NCBI GenBank assembly: GCA_014281115.1
Contig: JACONQ010000003.1
Span: forward strand, 4,278,001 to 4,342,000
Direction of reading: 5' to 3'
DNA: 64,000 nt
Source: Laburnicola sp. R22_1
Taxonomy: Eukaryota; Ascomycota; Dothideomycetes; Pleosporales; Didymosphaeriaceae
Position 1 is the stretch's first letter, and every line of letters begins with the position of its first letter. The position numbers and the translations under genes were made by a program. The notes under the pieces were generated by a model that saw only the letters and a program-made list of their open reading frames with translations, was not told the DNA's origin and made no database searches. Of the stretch, positions 4,202 through 56,640 are shown in pieces.

Positions 4202-5816
4202 CAATACTTCTATTAGTACGTAGTATAGATCCGTAGTATAGATCTATATAGTGTATATATAGAAACTATATAAGTAGCCATCTTAGCCTCTATACATATA
4301 TATAAGGTCGCAATATAGATTTATATATATAGCCATATATAGCTATATATATAAATATACAGGTACCCTTTTTAGTATTATTTTAGCGTTATTTTAGTGT
4401 TATTTTAGTGTAAAAAACACTAAAATCACTATGTTTTTAGCGTTAACTTTTAAGCTCTAGTAATTAGAAATTTTGCTTAAGATACTATCCTTATATGTTA
4501 TTATTGTTTTTCTACCCATAGTAAGTCATAGTGAAGTTTTAAATTCTATTAACCACATTACCACGTTGTTGCTATCGCCGCCAGCCATTATTGTCGTCTT
4601 ATCTTAGCGTAATATAGATTGCCACCTACGCAGTTAACTACCGTAAGCAGCTTAGGACTTATTATAGGCCTTAGCATTGTTATTATTGTCCTCGCAGTAG
4701 TTGCCATATTATTCTGCAGCGTTAAAGAGGCTGGGTAAATAGCCAGTACAGTTTACAGTCTCTACAGCCTTATTATCGCAGGTGTTCTTAGTACTAGCAT
4801 CCTCGCCACTACCTAAGTCGCTAATTAGCTTAAGCGACTTAAGCGGCGTTGCGTCCGCGTCTACGTTCTCTCTTAACTTATTACGCTTACTATATAACCT
4901 GCCTTATACATACCCTAACACTAAGAATAAATCTAATATTGGCCTACACTTTAATATTAACTAGAACAATATATATAAGTACCACTAGCACCTACTAGGC
5001 AACACGCTAGGTTATCGCGTTATTAATAAGCGCCAACTTCTTAGTAGCGCAGCCAGGTCCCCTATATATAATTACAGCGCAGATTTAGTATTTTGCAACA
5101 CTAGCGCTAGTAGTAAGAAAAGACGCATCTAGTTATATAAGTACTGCTATAAGATAAAGAAGCGCAATTGTACAAAGTTTTTAGAGTCCACCTACTATAG
5201 AACAAAACACCTAGAAAAGACCTATTTTATATTAGCGACAGGTAGTCTAGTAGCAGGGCTAGTAGTTGTAACACCTTTTAACGCCGCTCAAGGTACAATT
5301 AGTGTTCTAGATGCAGATAGCGTCCTATTAAAGGCACTATAGCAAGAGGAGGAGTTATAGAGGGCCTATATTAACTAGGTTATTACTAATAATATATCCT
5401 TTACAGAGGCGACCTCGCCAGCAACAAGAGCGCTACTTACCTAAAATCGCCGCTCGCTGCTCGCTACCCTCCCTACCAATCCCACCATACTCGCGGCGTA
5501 CATTACAAACATGCTAAAGAAGAGAACAAAGAAGGTGGCCTCTCTACTACACAGTGCTAAGTCTCTTATCCATATCAGCATCAACATATAGACGTCAAGC
5601 AACTACCTATTATTTCTTAGTGTTATAGCGCACTTTGTTAGTTAGTTATACATACCTACTAGCTCCAGGCGTTGTATACACTTACTAACTTTATTATATA
5701 GACGCGCAAAAAATCTACTAGGACATCCTTATCGCCTTCTATAACCTCTCTAGTAACCACACAGGCGAAAACTAGGGCGCTATTATCGCGGCGGTTGTGT
5801 TAGAGTATAGGTTTTA

Positions 5817-6198
5817 TGTCGGAGCAAAAGTGTCAGATACGTAAGTATCTTTGATGAGATGAGATGAAAGTGATGGATTTGATGATGAATTGATTGTCGA
5901 GTGATCTCTGTCGGAGAAGCTCAGCTATCGTACGCAATATCTATCTAGCGCTAAGACGCACTAGTAATAGTGCGGAGTAGTGTAACAGTAGTACGCCAGT
6001 CTCCTTTGTGTATTTCACAGTGATCTCACAGTGAAATCACTGTAAGTTACACCAACTGTCGTCATAAGGAGACCATGTGATCGGACGCACGTGACTACTG
6101 GATTTCACAGTGAAATCACAGTGATTTCCAGTGACCTGATATCTGACAAAAAGGCTAACCTTCCACTCCTAAGAATAGAAGAATAATGAACCGTCACA
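5817..6198. mobile_element. 59-bp TG...CA micro-element, interrupted by a solo LTR
   Basis: The outer element begins TGTCGGAGCAAAAG and ends CCGTCACA. Its 5-bp target duplication TTTTA lies at 5812-5816 and 6199-6203. Removing the inner solo LTR (5831-6148) and one AAAAG duplication leaves 59 bp, matching the uninterrupted copy at 56523-56581, which has its own different duplication GTACT. TG...CA ends plus a 5-bp duplication are the hallmarks of an LTR, so this is best read as a solo LTR of an extremely short-LTR retroelement. Confidence 0.85.
5831..6148 (+). mobile_element. 318-bp solo LTR inside the micro-element
   Basis: Begins TGTCAGATACG and ends ATATCTGACA. Flanked by the 5-bp duplication AAAAG (5826-5830 and 6149-6153). 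A second copy lies in inverted orientation at 31116-31433 and differs at only about two positions. The LTR contains clustered palindromic CAGTGA/TCACTG words. It is related in layout to the 293-bp LTRs of the Copia element at 31467-36947, so it likely belongs to a sister Copia family. Confidence 0.9.
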
Positions 6199-7689
6199 TT
6201 TTAGAACAAGTTTGGCTACTTTATAGGTGACAACGCAATAAACAACAATATAATATTTATTAACGCCCTTAATATACTCCTTAAGCTTAAACCCACAGCT
6301 AAGAACCAAATACGCTGCGCGGGATATATTATTAATCTAATTGTCAAGGCCATTATATACAGCGACAGAGTCTCTTAATTTAAGCGCAACCTAGCCAACG
6401 CACCACCTAAGTCGCAATTCGCGATATTTCGCTATTGCGGTATTATTAGACAGCTGCACAACCTTATTATCGCTATTAACGCGTCTAACAAGTGTTGCTA
6501 TATATTCCAGCAGATACAACGCAAGGACGTTAGCGAGCTTCTTTAGTTTACGCCCTTAACACTAGTTATTAATAGCGGAGTAAGGTGGCACTCTGTGTAC
6601 CTTATACTAGTGCGCAGCTATAAGCTAAAGAAGTCTATTAACTAGTTTATCCGCCAATAGCGTTAGTTAAAGGGCGTCGTCAATAATGCGGAGAACAAGG
6701 AGGAGGAGGACGGCTTTAATCCCGCACTTAATTATCTCACGCCTAACAAATAGGACCAGGCTAAGAGCCTCGCTAATATGCTCTAGCCATCTTATAAGAT
6801 AATAAAAAGACTTAAGGGCAACACAAGCAAGTCTAGTTTTAGCTCTATCTGGCAAACAATTACAAATCTAAACGTCCTTAACTTAACAATTAGGGAGGAA
6901 AAACGTACCCTTAAAAACAGCCACAACGAGTTCCTAAAGGGAGGTATTAATCAAGGTTTTAAAAAGCTCAACACATACTAGTTAAGGATAATATTTAACA
7001 TCACACTGTCTCCGTACGCTATCGCCACCATCCTCACCCCGCGACTACGTATTGCTTAGTTCAAGCAGCGATGGCGGCACAACAACAAATATTATTGTAA
7101 GGTAAAGTTAGACATAAAAGCGACCTTTAAGCTATATGTTAAGCGATTTTCGGAGCAGCCATTACGAGGAGGCGACAAGAGGCTAGAGACCAAGCCTCCT
7201 TCTCACTAGAAGACACCTGACAGTTACGCGTCGCGATATGAGGACTCGCTAGCTGTTAACACCCATTACATAATAGGTTATAAGTATAAGGCTAAGAAGG
7301 CCCGCATAAGCAAGCTTAACAATTACTATGCGACCCACAATGAACACCTTGCTGTCTTTGCAAACACCAACAATAAACGCCTAGACAATCCAATTACCTG
7401 GTGGGAGCAGGTTGGTTTTAAGTTGTATCCCACTCTCTATTAAATAGCCCTTAATTACCTGTCTATCCCCGCAACGTTATGCGACTATGAGAGAGCGTTT
7501 AGCGGGGTAGGGAGGACAGTTACTGGCGACCGAAATTGTCTCTAGGGCGGCAATATTAAAGCTTTACAATTGTAGAAGAATTGGGTAAAGAGAGGAGCTG
7601 TACAAAGTCACCTTAACAACCTTGTTAGGTCAGCTATTCGATAAGTACAATAAGTACTATACTCAGTGTGAAAACACTGAAAAAACACT

Positions 7690-10565: not shown

Positions 10566-11558
10566 ATGTCTCGCTACGCGGAAGCCCACGCCAAACCCAA
10601 CGGTCCCGGCGACACTCGCCCCACTGCGCTCCAAATTGTCAAAGACGAGGGCCTCGAGGGTGTCTTGAGTGACAAGGTCTTCCTCGTAACTGGTGCCTCG
10701 TCGGGCATTGGGATTGAGACAGGCCGCGCTCTCGCCGCCACAGGCGCTAAGGTGTTCCTAGCCGTCCGCAACATCAAGAAGGGCATGGAGGCATGCACGT
10801 CCTTCCTTGAGCCTGGTCGCGTTGAGCTGATTGAGCTTGATGTGGCTAGCCACAAATCAGTCCGCGCTTGTGCTGCCGCTTTCCTGGAGAAGTCGCAGAA
10901 GCTCAACGTCCTCGTCTGCAACGCCGGTGTCATGACAATTCCGACACGTGAGGTGAGCGAGGATGGATTCGAGATGCAGCTCGCCGTGAACTACCTCGGT
11001 CACTTCCTACTATTCTGGCTGCTCAAGGACACCTTAATCAAGTCGTCGACGCCCGACTTTCAATCTAGACTCGTGAACGTTTCTAGCTCTGGACATCAAT
11101 CATCCGAGATCGTCTGGGACGACATCAACTTGGAGAAGTCTTACGACCCCTCCCTTTCGTACGGCCAGTCCAAGCTCGCCCAGATCTACCAGGCCAACTA
11201 CGTCGATCGGTATTTCGGTGCCAAGGGCCTCCACGCTCTTAGCCTGATGCCGGGAGGTATCATCGAAACCGGCTTGGCCAAGCACACACCGCCGGAGATG
11301 ATGGAGGCTTCCAAGCAGAACCCAGTCTTGTCCAAGTGGGTGAAGAGCCGAGAGCAAGGCGCTGCGACCACTGTCCTTGCTGCCATAGGCAAGGAGTGGG
11401 AGGGCAAGGGCGGGGAATACTTGGAGGATTGTGCGGTAGCGAGCAAGGATGAATCGACCTTCATGCCCACTCTCTCGGGTTGCAAGAGCTACGCACACGA
11501 TGAGGCCAAAGAGGCGAAGCTTTGGAAGCTAACTTTGCAGATGCTACAACTTTCTTAG
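10566..11558 (+). CDS. Short-chain dehydrogenase/reductase, retinol-dehydrogenase-like
   Basis: Intact 330-aa single-exon ORF of the classical SDR fold. Visible motifs are the cofactor loop TGASSGIG (42-49), NAG (119-121), a serine-rich NVSSS strand (171-175) and catalytic Y199-x-x-x-K203 in YGQSK. The PG-G-I-x-T motif follows the active site. An N-terminal extension of about 35 residues and the overall layout fit the WW-domain-oxidoreductase/TIC32-like branch that includes many fungal NADP-dependent reductases. The substrate cannot be inferred. ATG at 10566 is the first in frame, 5' of the Rossmann fold and preceded by CATT-. No neighbour suggests a pathway. Unmutated and probably functional. 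Confidence 0.9.
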   Translation: MSRYAEAHAKPNGPGDTRPTALQIVKDEGLEGVLSDKVFLVTGASSGIGIETGRALAATGAKVFLAVRNIKKGMEACTSFLEPGRVELIELDVASHKSVRACAAAFLEKSQKLNVLVCNAGVMTIPTREVSEDGFEMQLAVNYLGHFLLFWLLKDTLIKSSTPDFQSRLVNVSSSGHQSSEIVWDDINLEKSYDPSLSYGQSKLAQIYQANYVDRYFGAKGLHALSLMPGGIIETGLAKHTPPEMMEASKQNPVLSKWVKSREQGAATTVLAAIGKEWEGKGGEYLEDCAVASKDESTFMPTLSGCKSYAHDEAKEAKLWKLTLQMLQLS

Positions 11559-30714: not shown

Positions 30715-31115
30715 TAAAGGAGAAGGTTGTTATAGGATACTCTAACTAAGTTAGAGTCTACACTATATATAAAGAGAGGTAAAACTAGAGGTACTTTATA
30801 ACTTAGTACCTAGTAAATAATAGGAATAATAAAAATATATAAATTATTATTAATTTACTTAAGTAACTTTTTATATAGTAACTATATTAGTAGTAGTTAT
30901 ATAATAGTATCTAAAGAGTTATATATTATTATCTATTAACTATAACTATTAGAGAGTTATAATAGAACTATAAAGTTATAATTATAAGAGATCTATTATT
31001 ATACTAGGATACTTAACTATAGTTTACTATTATTATTATTAGTAGTATAGTATATAAAGTTTACCTACTCTTATAATATCTATAATACCTAGTATACTAA
31101 CTTAATAAGTCTTTT

Positions 31116-31433
31116 TGTCAGATATCAGGTCACTGGAAATCACTGTGATTTCACTGTGAAATCCAGTAGTCACGTGCGTCCGATCACATGGTCTCCTTAT
31201 GACGACAGTTGGTGTAACTTACAGTGATTTCACTGTGAGATCACTGTGAAATACACAAAGGAGACTGGCGTACTACTGTTACACTACTCCGCACTATTAC
31301 TAGTGCATCTTAGCGCTAGATAGATATTGCGTACGATAGCTGAGCTTCTCCGACAGAGATCACTCGGCAATCAATTCATCATCAAATCCATCACTTTCAT
31401 CTCATCTCATCAAAGATACTTACGTATCTGACA
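31116..31433 (-). mobile_element. 318-bp solo LTR, second copy
   Basis: Begins TGTCAGATATC and ends CGTATCTGACA, with a 5-bp duplication CTTTT at 31111-31115 and 31434-31438. The reverse complement matches the LTR at 5831-6148 with about two mismatches. It sits inside the unclassified RIP-mutated element but is itself nearly unmutated. Confidence 0.92.
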
Positions 31434-31466
31434 CTTTTACTCTTATTTATATCTATTATATCTAGT

Positions 31467-34400
31467 TGTCAAATATACGGGTATTCTTGATGAGTTGAGA
31501 TGGAAAAGTGGTGGGTTAATTGATTGATTGTGTGTGTTCTGTTCGGAGAAGCTCGGCTACCGCGAGAAGTAACTATCTAGTACTAAGCCGCACTAGTACT
31601 ATTTAGAATAGTACAGGGGCAGTGTAAAACAGTAGTGCGCCAGCCTCCTCAGTGTATTTCACAGTGAAATCACTGTGATTTACATTGATTACCACTGTAA
31701 GGGGCCATATGATCGTACACACCTACCCACTGGATTTCACAGTGACTGTCTATCTGACACACCCCCTCAGCTTGGAACCATCTCAAGCTGGACCCAATTC
31801 TTCGCAGCCGTACTATAACTCATAGTCCAAAAGCTTCCATCCTGTCTTTCAATTCGTCAAGGTCGACCTCTTGGTCGGTGATCCTACCCCTGACGTCTTC
31901 AAGTCCGAGTTGATTTACGAACTTAGTCCATTTGCCAGCTAGCAGAGCCTTTGTAAGGCCATCTTCTGCTATTTATTCTAACTATTAGTACTAGATTTTG
32001 ATAGCTCCACGTACTACTTCTTGTCGAAGCCAATAATTGTGTATATTAACGTGCCTAAGCTTTGTTTGTAACTTAGCAATTTCTTTAGTAACAAGTTAAA
32101 TAGTTTGTTAATTGTCGCAATTAATAGTAATTGTTAAAGGTGAGAGTTTAATCTTAAGTTTAGCGAGCAACTAAGCTATAAACAGTGCCTCCTTTGCGAC
32201 TTGTAAGAGTGCCAGCAACTTAGCTTCAGTTGTTAAGGTGGTGACTATGTCTTGCTTATTTGCCTTCTAGGCGACAAGTCCACTAAACAGCTTAATAATG
32301 TATTCTTACAAGCTCTTTCTATCAAGGGTATTGTCTGCAAACAATGCGTCGCTAGCAATCTTGTAGGTGTCTGCACCTCCAAAGCGTAGCCCTAGTGATT
32401 AGGTGGAGGATAAGTATAGCAGTACACAGTCGGCGGCTTTGTGATAGTCGTTGCTGGGATTTGATAGGAAGCGCGATAATTAGGAGCTTGCGAAAGCGAT
32501 ATCAGGGCGTGTGGTTACTGCAGCGTACAGGATTAATCCGATCTTTTGCTAGTATTAATTAATCTCAGCCTTTGTAGCGAGTCCTTCTTAGGGTAGCAGT
32601 TCGACTGCGGACATTAGGGTATCGTGTTTAAGGTTGCGTTAGTCAATTAGGCAACTGATCTTGTCTATATAGGACGCCTAGGACAGCTATAGTTGCCTGT
32701 TTGCACAGTCTCTAACAATTTCAATCCCTAGAAACTACTAAAGATTATTACCACTAGTGAGGATAAACTGTGTACTTATCTTTTCCATCACTGCGTTAGC
32801 AGCGTATTTCTAATCTTTAGAGTAGGCGACGATAAGGTCGTCTATATAGAAGAAGATAATAATGCTGTCTTTAATTATATAGCAAGGCTTATAAGGGACT
32901 GTAGTAAAACCAAGATCCCTAAGAGCGCTGGTAAATTCTCTCTGCCATAGTAGTGGTGAGATTCAAAGACCATACAGTGCCTTATACAACTATAGAATAG
33001 TGCCAGGTCGTGTGTAACCTCGCGGCATTCTTATGTAGAGTTTTCTGTCCAGATTCGCATGGACGAAAGCGTTGGTGACGTCGTACTGGCTGAGCTCTAG
33101 GTCGTATTAAGCTGCCATGGACATAAGCAGGCGAAATAATCGTCCTGCGAGGGTTGCAGCATAGGTGTCTTGAGTAGTAAGGTGGCGTTGTTGATCTCCG
33201 CGTACTACTAACCTAGCCTTACACTTCTAAAATTAATAATGTTTGTCGAGTTTGTAAGTATACACCCACATGCAATTAAGGATTTAGTGGCCGCGTGATC
33301 GCACTAGGGTAATGGACACCTTACTCCAAGACTTTATTTCCTTGTGGCTTTGTAGGTATATCTGCTCAGCCTCCTTTCACATATTAAATAGCGGGTGATT
33401 GTCTATTCGTGTTCCGCTAGATGGAGGTTCTAGTAATTAACTTTAGTAGGGTTTCTATCCTGTTACAAGCATGCGATTAAATTGAGCTTTGTTAAGCGGC
33501 TTCCCCTTATACTTGCCTCTGCTTCCTGCTTATGTACCTGCTAGGAAAGCGGCTGCCTATAGCATAGCGCGTTAATCTGGCTGTGGTAATTCAATAGGTA
33601 ACTAGTCGTGTTAATTGTGTTCGAAGCTCGCTATTAATTAGACAAGTAATGCGACAGGCGGAGGTGTCACTGGTGGTGTTGGGTAGGTGTAATTAATCTT
33701 CCTCCCTTAGTAATACCCTAGCGGGTCTTCTTTTTTATCCTCGCGATTGCAGGTGTTAGTAATTAACTTATCCTTATAGAAGGATTTAGTGTTTTCTTGC
33801 TTAGGTAGTGGAGGTGGCAACTTTACTAATTAGGTCTATGCAGCAATCTCTTTAGTAGTGCTGTGTATAAGGTTGTCTAACAGGTCCTCTATTTTACCTA
33901 AGAATACCTTATCTTTGTTAAAAATAACGTTGCGTGTACTAATGACTTTGTTAAGTAGTAGAATCTATATCCTCCAGATGTTTAATAATTAGTAGCCCAC
34001 TAGGTATCTAACCTATGCCTTTAGGTCTAACCTTTAGAGCTTACTCTTGCTGCGTTTAGTATTATTAGTTAAGGCGAAGGCTTTACAGCTATAGTCCCTA
34101 AGGTGAGCCTAGTTTGGTTTCTTTAGTTAAGTGATAATGCCGTTTTGGAAAGTAACTATTGTAAAGAATACTTTGTGTGGTGATTGCTATTAGTTAGCGT
34201 AGTTTAGAGTTCGATTATATAGGTATACAGCCGCTTGTGTGATTTCTGGCTATAGGTTAAAAGGGAGATTGGCGTCAAGTCGCATTGCATAACCCTTCTT
34301 CTTAATTATACCCCCTGAGCGTTTAGCTCCTCTATTTTAAGCTTGGGTATTAGGTGCTAAAGGCTCGATAATAATACCTTTACTAACGCACTACCTATAA

Positions 34401-55138: not shown

Positions 55139-56522
55139 GGCTATTAAAAGGCTTCTAAGAGCAGCAAATAAATAGACAATACTAAACCATACTCCAATCG
55201 GCATTCAATAGAGGCTATAAGGACTTAGTAAAACCAAGATCTAACTAGTTATTCACTTTCTTAGCTAATACACGCTAAATACTAAACCAAGCTGAATCTA
55301 CTACCGTGCCGGTGCGCGTAACGAGCCGCGTCGCGTAGTGAGCCACCAAGCAACATCACGGCCTTGGAAAAAATGAGGCTGTACAGCCACCTACAATAAG
55401 TTAGCTATCATCACAAGATTTCTTAACATCCGTCCCTGCGTGGCGGGACGCACGGTCTAAAGGGACGGGTTCGCACTTCGGACCTTCGCAACCTTTCGTT
55501 CGCAAGTTAGTAGATACATAGTTAGTGTATGGGCATTCTATAATACACTCCCCTCTGTAGCTTAGCCTCTGGCAAGGACTGCCGTGATGTTGGCCATGTT
55601 ATCGATCGTTTTTGTCAACGTTGTCAATCGACCCTTCGTTGATATCTCCCTGTTTATTCGCAACCATGAGGGTCTTCGTAAAATTTGGAGGGTAGAATAC
55701 GAAGTATAAATTAAGAAGATTCTGTTTCTAAGCTCTAAAGGCCACTTTGACTTAGCAAATATAGGGTCCGAGAGTTTCGCCGGTGAGGAGCGAAGACGGC
55801 GAAAAGCGTTCCAGCGTGTTAGGATGCACCAGAGAGACTTGGCATGCAGCAGCGTGCTGTAGGCTCACATATCGCTGTATTCTTCTGTAACAAATTTGGA
55901 GCTACTGTAAGCAGTTGGGTAGTATGTGTAGAAAGTGTATATTGTAGAAGTATCTGTGTTCAGATGTGTATCTCCCTATCTATCGTACATGGAGTAATCA
56001 GAGGCTCGTATATAGTAGGCGAGCTGACTCATGAGACTAATGTCGTTATGTGACATAGCTCTAGGCTGCTTACGCACCCCCTTTAGGTTCGAACGTATGT
56101 TTAAAGCTAATATTAGCTATAGGTCCCCCTTTGCCTTTGTGTGGCAGCTATATTTAGGTTAAGAACTAGTCTCTGTATTAGTGCAGTCCTAGGTAGGTAG
56201 CCGCCCGCTATCGCAGTGTTAGTAGACCTCGCTCTATACTACAGGCGTCCCTAATAGTAGGACGTCTCCTAGAGCTAGTATTAAGATCCTAATTGCTTCG
56301 CGTTCTGTGTTAAGGTCAATGAGCCTTGTAGGTAAAGCTTAATATATAATGTGAGCATGTTTACTCTATGTATAAAGTAAGATATAGTATAAAGCTAAGT
56401 ACATAATAGAGCTATGTAAAGTGTAGGGGTATAGTGTAGAGCTGTGTACAGAATAGAGCTTAGTAAATATATAGCCTTATTAAACCTATAAAAACCACAT
56501 AGGAGAAACTAGGAAGAGTACT
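55139..56522. other. Intergenic region, no supported gene
   Basis: 3' flank of the ankyrin gene. RIP-like AT-rich sequence from about 56,090 onward. A 69-codon ORF at 55844-56053 has no recognisable feature. Confidence 0.45.
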
Positions 56523-56581
56523 TGTCGGAGCAAAAGGCTAACCTTCCACTCCTAAGAATAGAAGAATAATGAACCGTCACA
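56523..56581. mobile_element. 59-bp TG...CA micro-element, uninterrupted copy
   Basis: TGTCGGAGCAAAAGG...CCGTCACA with a perfect 5-bp duplication GTACT (56518-56522 and 56582-56586). Identical, as far as I can read, to the split copy at 5817-6198. No coding capacity. The structure is that of a very short solo LTR. Confidence 0.88.
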
Positions 56582-56640
56582 GTACTATACTGTAGGAAAG
56601 CTTATTTAGAAGGAAATAGTTAAAAATAAAGAAGAGAAAC

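Follow-up and report, generated by a model that had tools for sequence, protein, structure and literature searches.

What is a 59-bp sequence with TG...CA ends that stands twice in one stretch of fungal DNA, each time between its own short duplication? We examined this question in a 64,000-bp stretch of Laburnicola sp. R22_1 (the window; bases 4278001-4342000 of contig C20) and searched the genome of this one strain (63.9 Mb, 26 contigs). The preliminary description had reported two copies of the 59-mer with common ends and perfect 5-bp duplications (TTTTA and GTACT), and both copies were verified. Copy 1 spans 5817-6198 because a 318-bp solo long terminal repeat (LTR), with its own AAAAG duplication, inserted into it; once this LTR is removed, the two copies are identical at 59/59 bases. 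We found that the 59-mer is a real mobile element of integrase type that has moved recently. On balance, we favour the view that the family members are solo LTRs derived from a tiny, non-autonomous LTR retrotransposon (LTR length 59 bp) resembling terminal-repeat retrotransposons in miniature (TRIMs) and small LTR retrotransposons (SMARTs), whose complete form was lost or is absent from this strain.

Copies of the 59-mer were collected by BLAST and by end-pattern scans of the genome, with reversed patterns as controls. BLAST, the genome-wide check proposed in the preliminary description, gave 31 places on 12 contigs (E 1.9e-25 to 9.3e-14). The 5'-end pattern (first 21 bases, at most 3 mismatches) gave 30 places, comprising 29 family members and one diverged cousin, and the 3'-end pattern (last 22 bases) gave 31; the reversed patterns matched 1 and 0 times. 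A 30-base pattern tolerant of C/T and G/A exchanges at CpA/CpG gave 32 places, namely the 31 known copies and the cousin. The E values at 31 places and the reversed controls rule out a chance origin of the repeats. All fetched copies are single and 59 bases long, save the interrupted copy 1 of the window.

The copies differ little from one another: 20 of the 31 are identical, 7 have one difference, and four others have 2, 3, 4 and 9. Nearly all base differences across the family (24/25) are G-to-A or C-to-T. The TG...CA ends are kept by 30/31 copies, and the most mutated copy (L081; single, 59 bases, duplication CTATA) reads TA...TA through G2A and C58T. The G-to-A and C-to-T changes in L035, L038 and L081 resemble repeat-induced point mutation (RIP) or deamination, perhaps as spill-over from flanking repeats. 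RIP is not known to act on repeats as short as 59 bp. Base 49 is A in 8/31 copies and G in 23/31. Since G49A is present in all four copies with at least two differences, and other CpA sites changed at most twice, G49A is probably the mark of an older subfamily, not a mutation that recurred. The split suggests two subfamilies of different age, which is what a master element active in successive waves would produce. A second change, G5A, lies at a CpG site in 5 copies and could be either a subfamily mark or a recurrent mutation.

We then considered the insertion signature. Of the 31 copies, 30 lie between perfect target duplications of 5 bp. The sole copy without one, L038, was probably rearranged on one side, because its left flank aligns with L033 and L036 and its right flank with L014, L023, L028 and L035. 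For seven insertions (L011, L016, L017, L018, L033, L035 and L036), related repeats in the fetched loci provided empty sites. These repeats align across the insertion point free of gaps, and the gain at each was thus exactly 59 + 5 bases. No related repeat served as an empty-site partner at the other fetched loci. The preliminary description had argued for integrase-type mobility of a TG...CA unit and had named copies lacking 5-bp duplications as evidence to the contrary; with 30/31 perfect duplications and seven empty sites, its view is strongly supported. That the family could be an assembly or chance artefact has a negligible probability: the 31 places lie on 12 contigs with their own duplications, subfamilies can be told apart, copy 1 holds a younger nested insertion, and the empty sites refute this explanation.

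The target sites (n=30) have A/T at the centre in 29/30 and at -5/+5 in 56/60 positions. This pattern is symmetric, which is what a dimeric integrase would give. T is rare at target position -3 (5/60, both strands counted). None of the 29 insertions tested lies inside a stop-free stretch of at least 150 codons, compared with 8% of random points. A search for nearby transfer RNA (tRNA) genes in 30 loci of ~3 kb gave nothing but a single questionable prediction, without an assigned type, in L012. Single-stranded DNA folding of the 59-mer was unremarkable (z -1.26). From the TG...CA ends, the duplications, the target symmetry, the empty sites and the published precedents, we infer an integrase of the LTR-retrotransposon type.

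The copies are unevenly distributed over the contigs. Nine contigs (C2-C5, C7, C9-C12; 24.4 Mb) hold no 59-mer, though they hold 22 of the 52 counted insertions of two LTR retrotransposon families of this genome, Gypsy216 and Copia318. Randomisation gave p 0.008-0.03 for this absence, and Fisher's test gave p 5e-6 with contigs picked after looking. The unevenness could reflect mixed chromosome ancestry or a target bias.

Does any copy belong to a larger element? No two-LTR form was found in the genome, and no two of the 31 copies lie together within one outer duplication. A closely spaced pair on C6 (246 bp apart, L069) was rejected as a complete TRIM, as its members have separate duplications (TATTC and TGTTC). 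The preliminary description had proposed looking for a direct pair of copies that encloses a primer-binding site and polypurine tract; none was found in this genome, and 30/31 copies, bounded on both sides by their own duplication, leave no interior for these features. It had also raised the possibility that the 59-mer is an internal part of something longer. This was rejected: all copies other than L038 end at their own duplication, both end scans led back to the same family with no other carrier, and no longer element with the 21-22-base ends was found by them in the genome. A scan allowing 2 mismatches gave six extra matches (L082-L087) compared with 4 for the reversed control; on visual inspection none resembles a relative, although L084 has a stretch in common around AGGCTAACCTTC. 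Parents hidden by RIP were likewise rejected, as the pattern with freed C/T and G/A gave only the 31 known copies and the cousin. The exact 21-base core had 0 matches in viral and 0 in prokaryotic sequence collections. In the literature, searched mostly without subscription journals, we saw no such 59-bp family among fungal TRIMs or solo LTRs, SMARTs, miniature inverted-repeat transposable elements (MITEs) with 5-bp duplications, the shortest LTRs and smallest miniature elements, mobilised solo LTRs or Xylaria elements. A literature text search with four sequence words from the 59-mer returned one 12-mer only, in papers on other subjects by title.

For comparison, LTR ends were read for four LTR families, one of them with an uncertain 3' boundary; 116 integrase matches were listed in the genome, and of the reverse-transcriptase matches, 150 of 662 and 150 of 740 candidates were scored. 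Gypsy216 (LTR 216 bp) occupies 37 LTR places, which form 18 pairs and one single, with 5-bp duplications at all 18 pairs and at the single. Four of the 18 pairs are wider than usual and probably hold insertions. The family was called Gypsy because of its gene order; at C1, a single frame of 1782 codons encodes both reverse transcriptase and integrase. That element (G000; C1:2010483-2017071) has identical 216-bp LTRs, and several other copies have stops in the integrase region.

Copia318 counts, here and below, rest on 40 of 425 LTR candidates scored. Among these we found 7 pairs, all with duplications, and 26 LTRs listed as single. Two of the latter (L005, L109) had no LTR bounds and were dropped, and 14 of the other 24 are flanked by duplications. 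Of the 10 without duplication, 8 abut Copia interior, and the other 2 are L003 and L004. Counting 26/40 Copia LTR places as solos would therefore be wrong.

Both families were examined as possible donors of the integrase. T at -3 was found in 5/60 for the 59-mer and 23/42 for Copia318 (p 3e-7), and A/T at +-5 in 56/60 for the 59-mer and 18/36 for Gypsy216 (p 2e-6). At +-5, Copia318 (33/42, p 0.04) is closer to the 59-mer than Gypsy216 is. The target motifs of Copia318 and Gypsy216, the two families with enough sites, thus differ from that of the 59-mer, and neither is favoured as donor. A third family, family A (LTR 206 bp), provided 8 usable target sites from 10 copies looked up, too few for motif comparison.

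The Gypsy216 data also bear on the idea that the 59-mers are solo LTRs of a lost autonomous LTR retrotransposon of full, multi-kilobase size whose LTRs measured 59 bp. Such a parent would have the same end structure and duplications, and the Gypsy216 LTR opens with TGTGACGG, which is the reverse complement of the last 8 bases of the 59-mer. This terminal match is suggestive only, a possible lead to the donor, because the whole 59-mer is no more similar to the Gypsy216 LTR than expected by chance (101/500 shuffles reach the score). Full-size Gypsy216 insertions are nearly all LTR pairs (18/19), and their target preference differs. We regard a full-size parent as very unlikely.

A tiny TRIM-like element, collapsed everywhere or absent from this strain, is the most economical mechanism, because LTR-only families and TRIM families with no full-length copies are known in fungi, and 52-bp LTRs have been published. 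In this mechanism, the LTR-type 59-bp unit would have been inserted by an integrase of the LTR-retrotransposon type. Its parent would have been copied via RNA with enzymes from another element and inserted as LTR, short interior and LTR. It may then have collapsed to a single LTR when its two repeats, lying close together, recombined or slipped, leaving the complete form gone or missing here.

Eight of the nine families in S. pombe are LTR-only, and in yeasts such families arise by ordinary collapse (PMC7175516). Like the 59-mer, solo-LTR families of S. pombe and Cryptococcus are known in one genome from single LTRs only; the S. pombe Tf1 and Tf2 LTRs measure 358 and 349 bp and their complete elements are known, in contrast to 59 bp and no complete element found here (PMC7175516). 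Helenus elements are fungal TRIMs with 5-bp duplications, also at solo LTRs, and some of their families have no full-length copies (PMC10886601). Their LTRs contain tRNA-like sequence with RNA polymerase III boxes (PMC10886601), unlike the 59-mer, for which an Rfam scan of 56480-56630 gave one unrelated sub-threshold match (E 1.4; no separate A/B box search was made). FRetro129 (292 bp, 85-bp LTRs) has TGT...ACA ends and 5-bp duplications like those of the 59-mer (PMC3281118). The preliminary description had considered 59 bp far shorter than usual LTRs and shorter even than the ~85-bp LTRs of SMARTs, but published LTRs can be smaller still: the plant TRIM CcaRetroS9 (233 bp) has LTRs of 52 bp (PMC4717578). 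Of its two proposals, the family of solo micro-LTRs is the best-supported reading; mobilisation of a solo unit in trans, or a new minimal element, was not supported. LTR-only families are known in fungi (PMC7175516, PMC10886601).

TRIMs and SMARTs share with the 59-mer a very short LTR-like unit with no coding sequence, and solo forms of them are known. The 59-mer is non-coding and shorter than 1.5 kb, as are these elements; two LTRs within one common outer duplication, which also define them, were found at 0/31 copies. By comparison, 27 complete two-LTR copies with an interior are reported for FRetro129 in O. brachyantha (PMC3281118) and 10 for CcaRetroS9 (PMC4717578).

Several observations weigh against a collapsed TRIM-like element. 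There is no paired copy among the 31, and the ratio of single to paired copies (31:0) differs from 1:18 for Gypsy216 (Fisher p 1e-12) and from 14:7 for Copia318 (Fisher p 9e-4). Published SMARTs have complete-to-solo ratios of 3.4:1 to 50:1, and shorter LTRs give fewer solo LTRs (PMC3281118); the ant element PbTRIM keeps 67 complete and 159 solo copies (PMC3532108). The family is young, so every complete copy must have been lost quickly. Target sites also differ between the 59-mer and the Copia and Gypsy families tested.

In a second explanation, a bare 59-bp double-stranded unit with both integrase ends and no interior, e.g. an LTR-only reverse-transcription product, was inserted directly by an integrase acting in trans. 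The 31 single copies, with none paired, all have one length once the nested LTR is set aside, L081 included; their ratio is unlike those of the compared families, the diverged cousin has the same length (59-61), and the end scans found no other carrier. It is hard, however, to picture a stiff 59-bp duplex bringing its two ends together in a single integrase complex, and the ordinary collapse described for yeasts (PMC7175516) accounts for LTR-only families. According to PMC3281118, there is no demonstrated route by which solo LTRs could be amplified. We consider insertion of a bare unit unlikely.

The cousin, L066 (C26:718465), has a length of 59-61 and matches the 59-mer at 27/31 bases at the start and 9/10 at the end, but at 6/18 in the middle. 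Since two diverged members have one length, this single cousin suggests that 59-61 bases may be the true unit, whether LTR or element. Read as a 59-mer from TG, L066 has no matching duplication. Read as a 61-mer, it starts with TGTGACGG, ends with CCGTTACA, has the duplication TATAC and shows 7/8 inverted end bases. A genome scan for short units with TGTNACGG...CCGTNACA ends found two places, L066 and a 65-mer at C5:70147. The latter was rejected as a related unit, as it has no target duplication and fits chance (6 places for the reversed control).

MITEs and other DNA transposons with terminal inverted repeats (TIRs) typically have TIRs of ~10 bp or more. The two ends of the 59-mer agree at TGT only, followed by a 2-base offset. 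The 61-bp reading of L066, with its inverted ends and TATAC duplication, nevertheless fits a third explanation, in which the 59-mer is a very short MITE-like non-autonomous DNA transposon and a Ginger2/TDD-type transposase, similar to an integrase, moves it. Both ends of the 59-mer fit TGTNR, a pattern found also in Ginger and in most Gypsy elements, TDD-4/5 generate 5-bp duplications, and Ginger2/TDD elements, moved by such a transposase, have TGTNR ends with 4-5-bp duplications (PMC2836005); the AT-rich, symmetric target sites are also compatible. Ginger inverted repeats, in contrast, measure ~40-270 bp in Ginger1 and 50-180 bp in Ginger2 (PMC2836005), and the genome end scans found neither an element with longer common ends nor any relative with the ends of the 59-mer. 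We hold a Ginger2/TDD-type origin to be quite unlikely and retain the solo LTRs of a tiny TRIM-like element as the preferred reading.

The family is young and clean, its size is close to that of the smallest LTRs published, and no complete copy of it was found. It opens two questions to testing: the minimum size at which an LTR still works, and the possible mobilisation of solo-LTR-like units themselves. If a complete form exists in a sister strain, the family would be an extreme TRIM; if none ever comes to light, a new mechanism would be implied. Should the 59-mer move as a bare unit, it would be among the smallest eukaryotic mobile elements and a solo-LTR-like unit would be copyable, which would be important.

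Table 1. Positions of the two 59-mer copies and of the Copia LTR nested in copy 1 within the window
Feature	Positions	Strand	Remark
Left target duplication, copy 1	5812..5816	+	TTTTA, 5 bp
59-mer copy 1, first 14 bases	5817..5830	+	
Left target duplication of nested LTR	5826-5830		AAAAG; last five of the first 14 bases of copy 1
Copia solo LTR nested in copy 1	5831..6148	-	318 bp; outside the 59-mer proper
Right duplication of nested Copia LTR	6149..6153	+	AAAAG
59-mer copy 1, last 45 bases	6154..6198	+	
Right target duplication, copy 1	6199..6203	+	TTTTA, 5 bp
Left target duplication, copy 2	56518..56522	+	GTACT, 5 bp
59-mer copy 2	56523..56581	+	Unbroken, TGTCGG...GTCACA
Right target duplication, copy 2	56582..56586	+	GTACT, 5 bp

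The LTR nested in copy 1 belongs to a family with LTR pairs ~5.2 kb apart elsewhere and a Copia-type reverse transcriptase between them; a Pfam RVT_2 match lies inside one such pair (C22:3318812-3319441). The window contains a second 318-bp Copia solo LTR (~31108-31442, minus strand, duplication CTTTT), which adjoins a ~71%-identical inverted relative at 31481-31745 (plus strand), and a similar layout was found at C3:759068-759701. Elsewhere in the window, 10566-11555 encodes a short-chain dehydrogenase, for which Seiridium and Xylaria provide the best matches among named proteins.

Two further observations concern the 59-mer and its surroundings. At bases 16-34, CTAAC, a stretch rich in pyrimidines and AAG are reminiscent of the branch site and 3' splice site of fungal introns, possibly by chance. 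Another short dispersed repeat, ~84-105 bp long and 85-92% identical, was observed between or near 59-mer copies at L026 (1412-1504), L028 (2075-2179) and L031 (2064-2167).
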